Below are positions 37,894-38,272 of a stretch of DNA of 64,000 bases, piece after piece. Source of the stretch: Burkholderia sp. Bp8992 (GTDB lineage: Bacteria; Pseudomonadota; Gammaproteobacteria; Burkholderiales; Burkholderiaceae); NCBI RefSeq assembly GCF_003853705.1, contig NZ_QTQI01000006.1, forward strand, positions 236,832 to 300,831, written 5' to 3'. The notes beneath the pieces are model-generated. The model did no database searches, had not been told where the DNA came from, and saw nothing but the letters and a program-made list of their open reading frames with translations. The translations under genes were made by a program, and so were the position numbers. Every line of letters begins with the position of its first letter. Position 1 is the stretch's first letter.

Positions 37894-38272
37894 GGTCGCC
37901 CGCGCTGCGCCTGCGGGCGTAGGGCCTGTTCACGCTAATAACGGGCTTGCGCTGGCCCCCAGAAGGGCCGAGCGCAAGGATTGCGACGAAGCGAATACTC
38001 GACGTATTCGCGAGGAGCATGACGCGGCGATCGGCCCTTCCGGGGGCCAGCCCCACGAATGAATTTTTTCAAACAGGGGAACGTGTCTTTCCGCCCACAT
38101 TGCGGCGTCGTGCGTCGCTTGTTTGGCATGGCCAAACGGCGCTCCTTACTCCTTGCACTGCGGGCGGAAAGTCACGTTCGCAAGCCCGTTATTAGCGTGA
38201 ACAGGCCCTGGCCCGACGTCCTGTCGCTGCCGGCCACCGCGCCGGCATTTTTTATCGAAAGTGGTCCGAACC
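37894..38272 (+). other. 379-bp gap between the ArsC-like gene and dapE
   Basis: This gap is three-quarters filled by a highly structured 289-bp repeat element (separate entry). The remaining 27 bp on the left and 63 bp on the right hold no gene. Translation of the element in several frames gives short open frames that are shadows of the palindromes. Confidence 0.7.
37921..38209. repeat. 289-bp palindromic element with 31-bp terminal inverted repeats
   Basis: The outer arms 37921-37951 and 38179-38209 are perfect 31-bp inverted repeats. Inside lie a 99-nt hairpin (37952-38050; outer 19-bp arms with one mismatch, inner stem GCGAATAC/GTATTCGC around 37991-38011), a 29-nt stem (38051-38079, CCCC with GGGG and TGAA with TTCA), and a second 99-nt hairpin (38080-38178; outer 17-bp arms with one mismatch, inner GTTTGGC-ATG-GCCAAAC). 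The pieces tile the element exactly: 31+99+29+99+31. There is no transposase and no evident target duplication. It resembles a MITE or a large structured dispersed repeat. Confidence 0.9.

Follow-up and report, generated by a model that had tools for sequence, protein, structure and literature searches.

A dispersed two-hairpin mini-transposon family of Burkholderia with concerted change of its inverted-repeat arms

Introduction

What is the long palindrome that lies between dapD and dapE in Burkholderia sp. Bp8992, how did it come to be there, and what keeps its arms complementary? The window analysed here is a stretch of 64,000 nucleotides (contig NZ_QTQI01000006.1, positions 236,832 to 300,831 of the forward strand). 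Downstream of dapD comes an ArsC/Spx-like gene; the element in question begins 27 bp beyond the stop codon of that gene and leaves about 50 bp to dapE. The neighbouring products are DapC, DapD, an ArsC family protein, DapE and ribosomal protein L3 glutamine methyltransferase. A first-pass annotation, made from the sequence, had left two readings side by side, a MITE mobilised in trans and a structured RNA element that protects the dapD/dapE transcript. Here, we describe a new family of mini-transposons, of a kind already known, to which the element belongs; its two-hairpin interior is unusual, and its arms clearly change in concert. We regard a joint reading as an IS5-type MITE with arm change at the DNA level as highly probable.

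Results

Architecture of the element

Comparison of the ends confirmed the outline that had been described, perfect 31-bp inverted repeats around two hairpins of about 99 nt and a 29-nt spacer: 37921-37951 and 38179-38209 are 100% complementary, and the inner inverted repeats are complementary to 92% (37951-37975 with 38027-38051) and 88% (38079-38103 with 38155-38179). The parts of the locus, with the observations that bear on each, are the following.

37920..37921, no strand: left target TA (T at 37920, A at 37921), from junctions versus empty sites and from flank counts
37921..37951, plus strand: left terminal inverted repeat; the outer 18 bp past the A (37922-37939) resemble an IS5-type end
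37952..38050, plus strand: hairpin A; outer stem in concerted change, inner core with the tip GCGAATAC..GTATTCGC
37976..38028, plus strand: hairpin A core; six subfamily-2 copies match it at 34-48 of 53 positions, and its stem at 30-37 of 47
38051..38079, plus strand: AT-rich spacer that separates the two hairpins; subfamily 2 is identical at 8-11 of 23 scored positions
38080..38178, plus strand: hairpin B; outer stem in concerted change, inner core with the tip GTTTGGC..GCCAAAC
38098..38160, plus strand: hairpin B core; six subfamily-2 copies match it at 51-55 of 63 positions, and its stem at 17-19 of 38
38179..38209, plus strand: right terminal inverted repeat, from complementarity to the left repeat and pattern search
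38209..38210, no strand: right target dinucleotide; reads TG in the window and TA at the filled orthologous site in G036
38228..38247, plus strand: terminator-like hairpin, then TTTTTT; outside the element, upstream of dapE, in empty sites too

When folded as RNA, the element reached -192.8 kcal/mol, against -110 kcal/mol (sd 5.43) for 200 shuffles (z -15.25), and the DNA fold gave z -13.21 against its shuffles. The exact tiling of the element by five pieces, as first described, stands to within one base, but in the fold base 31 pairs with 131, and base 259 with 159 rather than with 31. A search of the window for the terminal-repeat pattern found these two occurrences and no others, where chance would give none. 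The element is 289 nt without a gene, in agreement with the earlier statement that it carries no transposase; likewise, the same 10-residue peptide can be read from both terminal repeats, as the translation of the right repeat and, on the other strand, from the left repeat, which is its exact reverse complement. Equal hairpin length (99 and 99 nt), which had been noted as a regularity, proved to be no family property: 130 full-length copies span 252-343 nt, of which 95 measure 286-290 nt and 24 measure 305-316 nt, and some family copies lack hairpin A and others the B core.

At the end of the window, two copies of another, terminator-like palindrome, AAATGAAAAAGCCCGCACAAGGCGGGCTTTTTCATTT, are located 146 nt apart (63705-63741 and 63888-63924), and this pair adjoins a tRNA gene at 63930-64000.

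Insertion at TA in the dap cluster

Filled and empty sites, which the first-pass annotation had wished to see compared, were both present at 11 orthologous dap loci, picked from among the matches listed rather than from all 65 genomes. One of them is filled (G036), seven are empty (G006, G058, G062, G032, G001, G027 and G008, the last with a few further bases missing), and three hold remnants, with the left repeat only in G041 and G038 and about 8 bp in G059. The remnant in G041 and G038 ends at CTGGCCC, a sequence found at both edges of the lost stretch, which would fit a loss by slippage. An empty site (L086) reads GCGGGC-GCA-GCCCGACG, while the filled site reads GCGGGCG-TA-GGGCC...GGCCC-T(A or G)-GCCCGACG, and most empty sites have CA at that place. 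Because the empty, filled and decayed forms of the dap site fit a TA insertion, we class the element as a non-autonomous mini-transposon (MITE). It measures 287 bp, reads GGGCC...GGCCC and has a TA dinucleotide as its insertion target.

This comparison with empty sites concerns the dap locus alone, and flanks were counted across the family. Among 120 distinct flanks, the left side has TA in 70, the right side in 71 and both sides in 52, and the full YTA..TAR is present in 46; the first 87 flanks had yielded 54, 52 and 42. The terminal A and T were constant in 82 and 84 of 87 copies, and the T and A outside them in 58 and 53. Since they are more constant than the outside bases, the terminal A and T may belong to the recognised end.

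A dispersed, intergenic family

The count of copies that the first-pass annotation had called for placed the element in a dispersed family. Of 65 Burkholderia genomes, 59 gave matches; across the family Burkholderiaceae, with the best candidates of each genome scored, 77 of 299 genomes and 8 of the 25 genera sampled did so. In four genomes, the terminal-repeat pattern was counted 9, 19, 21 and 43 times. Facing terminal repeats further apart, as in a longer composite element, were sought in four genomes, and none was seen by eye. A plasmid collection yielded six matching records, of which three are from Caballeronia, Paraburkholderia and Cupriavidus, and no match to the element was found in the phage records and E. 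coli genomes searched.

We then worked with 130 copies, taken from the best-scoring rows of the genus search, a few further places and three named records, with 20 partial matches omitted from the count and the duplicates L056, L066 and L082 removed from 133 entries; copies were chosen by score and full-length coverage, so that intact copies are over-represented. The 31-nt terminal repeats pair with 0 mismatches in 87 copies and with 1 mismatch in 30, and the 87 perfectly complementary arm pairs comprise 26 different sequences. In a joined-flank test, nine of 129 copies lay within a coding-like frame, five of these at one shared site, and 120 lay outside; copies are overwhelmingly intergenic, as is usual for MITEs. 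L055, L186, L188, L193 and L194 share an insertion site some 3 bp ahead of what looks like a start codon (ATGAAAAGCAT...); their joined flanks also form a continuous coding-like frame, and this site may lie within or between overlapping genes.

A second subfamily, with the same two-hairpin plan and other terminal repeats (of the GGGTCTGTTTnC..TGGAACGCGCATGCG type), was identified in G001 and on a Paraburkholderia sprentiae replicon. The copies also vary in their interior. Three pairs from different genomes have the same insertion site and lengths about 27 nt apart (L150/L336, L185/L325 and L311/L338), and a mini-hairpin module of about 27 nt occurs in hairpin B of L097 and of the subfamily-2 copies L006 and L010; this module may be the source of the extra length in the 24 copies of 305-316 nt. 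Hairpin A is lost in L003, L095 and L200, and the B core in L093. The loss in L003 probably happened in place, because its flanks are those of the site where L311 and L338 are full length.

No earlier description of the Burkholderia element was found in literature titles and abstract openings, and subscription papers may contain one. The available text of PMC5688073, on B. cenocepacia sRNAs, makes no mention of repeats, copies, transposition or palindromes.

A probable IS5-family mover

The outer-end pattern with TA, with the MITE interior excluded, gave matches in 31 of 65 genomes, in which decayed repeats and IS ends are mixed. In G022, two elements of about 830 bp each have these ends facing each other, and single ends were found in other genomes. 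When second ends were sought without demanding TA, they were found for four of seven elements (L205, L206, L209 and L210), and all four were then followed by TA. The ORF in G022 (P0002, 251 residues) scored above cut-off for DUF4096 (PF13340), DDE_Tnp_1 (PF01609) and NF033580 IS5_3, with 287.5 bits on the last (cut-off 110). An OrfA from G015 (P0001) reached 105.1 on the same IS5_3 model, slightly below the cut-off of 110, and the G015 element has one end, GGGCCTGTTCACACTATTAG, that is nearer to the subfamily of the window.

Named genomes were scanned with the G015 OrfA, and the best 80 of 468 loci were retained. At 62 of these 80 best loci, a TA-bounded end agreed with the outer 18 MITE bases at 13 or more positions, and at best at 17; seven of the 62 are copies in one Xanthomonas genome. 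Of the others, 16 scored 3-10, where the script missed the true ends, and two were without a TA-bounded candidate. The script demanded TA on both sides, and its TAs are thus no independent evidence for the target. The best end match, in Paraburkholderia L228 and L230, aligns GGGCCTGTTCACACTAAT with GGGCCTGTTCACGCTAAT at 17 of 18 positions. MITE and IS (about 810-830 bp) have the outer 13-18 bp or so in common, and no relation to the IS was seen in the interior.

The many copies, the TA target, the empty sites and the near-identical IS5 ends support the first of the two earlier readings, and the MITE is most likely mobilised in trans by an IS5-type transposase; the pairing of this MITE with the IS is drawn from the likeness of their ends and their choice of target. 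A transposase of the IS5 family (NCBIfam IS5_3 type, probably of the IS427-like group) would recognise the outer 13-18 bp or so of the element and would move it in trans into YTAR sites, mostly intergenic ones. Relatives of P0001 were found in 8 of 65 Burkholderia genomes, six of them at 80% identity or above, with a stop in four of the matches, and none was found in G001; the exact IS end pattern was present in 10 of 65. G022 has the most copies of transposase relatives (five) but five MITE matches, the best with an E value of 5.6e-16. Because close transposase relatives are rare (8 of 65 genomes, and none in the nearest relative compared), the MITE looks orphaned in most of the Burkholderia genomes searched, where the copies seem to be fixed relics mostly without a resident mover. 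Another IS5 element with compatible ends could be present elsewhere.

Other candidates in the same genomes were rejected. The IS5-type elements L102 and L110 have different inverted repeats, AGAGGCCAGTT, and each has one GGGRCTGTTTAC stretch near an end. Recurrent DUF4096 (IS5 OrfA-like) proteins were found at L107:1453-1884, L115:1345-1746 and L122:1282-2439, with matches in seven other genomes; three inspected loci had no DDE partner ORF by eye. In most of eight genomes, such proteins recur at seemingly corresponding places: one replicon has two, separated by about 26-28 kb, and a third lies elsewhere. They may be domesticated transposase DNA-binding domains.

We also weighed movers of other kinds. 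Were it a REP/REPIN-like element, a single-strand Y1 transposase (RAYT) would move it and leave no target duplication. Such an element would be palindromic, intergenic and multi-copy as this one is, and insertion between T and A without duplication would yield an identical sequence, in line with the steadier A...T termini (82 and 84 of 87, against 58 and 53 of 87 for the T and A beside them). However, the IS with the same outer ends codes for a DDE transposase, and the second ends sought without a TA demand were still followed by TA, which leaves movement by a RAYT highly improbable. REPs are 20-40 bp long and GTAG- or CGTC-tagged in the available part of PMC3733652. The window element is clearly of a different size. 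Slightly less probable still is a MITE derived from IS630/Tc1-mariner, a family that likewise targets TA, as the element does, with CTAG preferred by IS630 itself. PF13358 (DDE_3) was found in four of eight MITE-rich genomes, the repeats at the three longest G011 hits are unlike the MITE ends, and it is IS5 ends that match at up to 17 of 18 positions instead. One GGGACTGTT stretch was noted at the PF13358 locus L135.

Concerted change of the arms

The covariation alignment comprised 68 of the 75 copies of 284-292 nt (from the first 93), after removal of near-identical ones. Both the hairpins and the covariation that had been proposed for checking were evident, with 95.2% of the cells of the window fold being standard pairs in the 68 copies, and double changes in 45 of 112 pairs against 14.0 in shuffles and 7 to 14 in slid structures. 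The weak spacer helix was paired in 54.3% of cells. RNA selection should tolerate G-U and not A-C, whereas a DNA process should treat both equally; in the outer stems (terminal repeats, A and B), we counted 183 double Watson-Crick cells, 22 G-U, 24 A-C and 23 other mismatches.

Copies at the same insertion site in different genomes form 17 groups among the 130. We compared the closest sister pair with 2-25 differences in each of 15 of these sites (the other two had 1 and about 52), and found 13 double changes versus 0.86 expected, with a maximum of 5 in 5000 runs, under a null of uniform placement, half transitions and no rate variation; the pair of the window and G036 supplies 2 of the 13. 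At least one double change was present in 14 of the 17 groups. When all members of the 17 groups were taken, single-sided states exceeded double-type states, 34 to 14 in the terminal repeats and 61 to 32 in the other outer stems, an excess that comes partly from decayed copies such as L193 and L340. Moreover, both orientations occur in 4 of the 17 groups. The inverted pairs L163/L164 and L179/L180 differ at only 2 and 7 positions, which is clear in-place inversion, while the inverted copies in the L041 and L044 groups differ at 37-49 positions and are possibly independent insertions. These results show concerted change at fixed sites, both in the terminal repeats and in the outer stems of the hairpins, one arm changing with the other. 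Because the outer stems show no G-U preference, double changes arise at fixed sites and both orientations occur, the change most likely comes from DNA-level arm homogenisation and not from RNA selection.

The opposite view, a structured RNA kept by selection, for instance one that protects or processes the dapD/dapE transcript, can point to a very stable fold, to hairpins kept in most aligned copies with many compensatory changes, to the conserved B core, and to G-U counts above A-C in the A core and the middle of B. In the outer stems, such selection predicts an excess of G-U, and the cells number 22 G-U versus 24 A-C. The strand of the element relative to neighbouring genes is not fixed at 4 of 17 shared sites, where both orientations occur; at the dap locus itself, presence is sporadic (7 of 11 loci empty and 3 with remnants), the family occupies many unrelated loci, and a terminator-like hairpin, found in empty sites too, separates the element from dapE. 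In the Rfam search, positions 37850-38300 gave no match at E <= 1, and a tRNA was the sole hit in the window at the gathering threshold. We therefore do not uphold the protection of the dapD/dapE transcript suggested by the first-pass annotation, and hold a selected RNA to be very unlikely as an account of the element. Other copies, mostly kept hairpins and covariation, on which that annotation had let its proposal depend, were all found, but the covariation is best explained at the DNA level.

How the arms are copied is a separate matter. From the concerted change, the inversions and the lost hairpins, we infer that the arms of an element pair as DNA and are copied from each other, and we lean towards template switching during replication as the process. 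Template switching between inverted repeats is a reported cause of arm homogenisation together with spacer inversion in the available text of PMC8604942, and the gap of 227 nt between the element arms is far above the spacers given there. Ectopic gene conversion between copies in the same genome, with donors already matched in their arms, could also yield doubles at a fixed site, and the length differences of about 27 nt at the same site (L150/L336, L185/L325 and L311/L338) suggest interior exchange or repeated gain and loss. However, L029/L031 (6 differences), L045/L174 (5) and L051/L157 (4) each hold a double without a block of others, and conversion alone leaves the inversion at L163/L164, with its 2 differing positions, unexplained. 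We consider ectopic conversion possible but rather unlikely as the source of the concerted arm changes.

Conserved hairpin cores

Between the subfamilies, the B core keeps 51-55 of 63 positions in six copies and the B stem 17-19 of 38; the corresponding values are 18-21 of 34 for the inner terminal repeat and 8-11 of 23 for the spacer. For the A core, 34-48 of 53 positions are kept, a proportion not clearly above that of the A stem (30-37 of 47) or, in five copies, of the outer terminal repeat (18-20 of 26). The terminal-repeat counts of L006, the ends of which were mis-bounded, were disregarded in this comparison. Within the 68-copy alignment, the inner part of A had 0 double changes, 14 G-U and 5 A-C cells (6 to 5 distinct types) and 11 other mismatches; the middle of B had 22 doubles, 121 G-U and 55 A-C (9 to 6 types) and 77 others; and the B tip had 7 doubles, 2 G-U, 9 A-C and 29 others. 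In 6 of the 68 copies (L048, L049, L172, L177, L184 and L187), the tip GTTTGGC..GCCAAAC is swapped as a unit for GCAATAGC..GGCTATTGC, a different sequence that is also self-complementary.

Arm correction leaves the conserved B core unexplained. This core, and less clearly the A core, probably has a sequence-specific role, as its conservation between subfamilies suggests, and a constraint at the RNA level may act on the cores, for which the G-U and A-C counts of the inner parts are ambiguous. A further proposal treats the cores, and that of B in particular, as a functional module of folded DNA (or RNA), which the element would keep while its stems and terminal repeats are freely rewritten in pairs; we put this forward tentatively and think it doubtful. 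If it were true, the module might, for instance, be a hairpin that a host protein recognises or on which efficient transposition depends. The family would then serve as a natural archive, on the scale of whole genomes, of how inverted repeats in living bacteria pair and correct each other, and its traces would be the concerted arm changes and in-place inversions seen when one site is compared between species.

Discussion

With this analysis, Burkholderia and related genera gain a defined and widespread mini-transposon family with a probable mover. It also carries a warning, that strong compensatory covariation, usually read as a sign of functional RNA, can come from DNA arms that correct each other. 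Counts of G-U versus A-C and the comparison of orthologous sites help to separate RNA from DNA causes, and both are applicable to other palindromic repeats.

Among known systems, the inverted-repeat process finds its likeness in quasipalindrome correction, in which arm homogenisation and spacer inversion are twin outcomes. The available text of PMC8604942 treats short repeats with very short spacers in yeast genes, whereas here the arms are 31 bp long and 227 nt apart, in a mobile element of bacterial species. By description, ERIC, BOX and other palindromic repeats of enterobacteria and pneumococci are, like this family, intergenic, palindromic and multi-copy (see also PMC2759123). Their hosts differ from those of the Burkholderia element.

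Correia elements have a TA target, as does the family described here. These elements (NEMIS) of Neisseria are high-copy MITEs, for which RNase III cleavage of transcripts at the repeats and inversion have been reported in the available part of PMC10969869. By description, the window element is set apart from them by its two separate internal hairpins and by a different inferred transposase.

The ISs of the IS5 family (IS427-like group) share with the MITE the outer 13-18 bp of their ends and probably the TA target, and the transposase of the G022 element has DUF4096 and DDE_Tnp_1. Members of IS5/IS427 measure 832-865 bp, with 2-bp duplications in 10 of 11 rows, in the available part of PMC3281130. 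Unlike these ISs, the MITE lacks a transposase, and its terminal repeats, 31 bp in length, are usually perfect.
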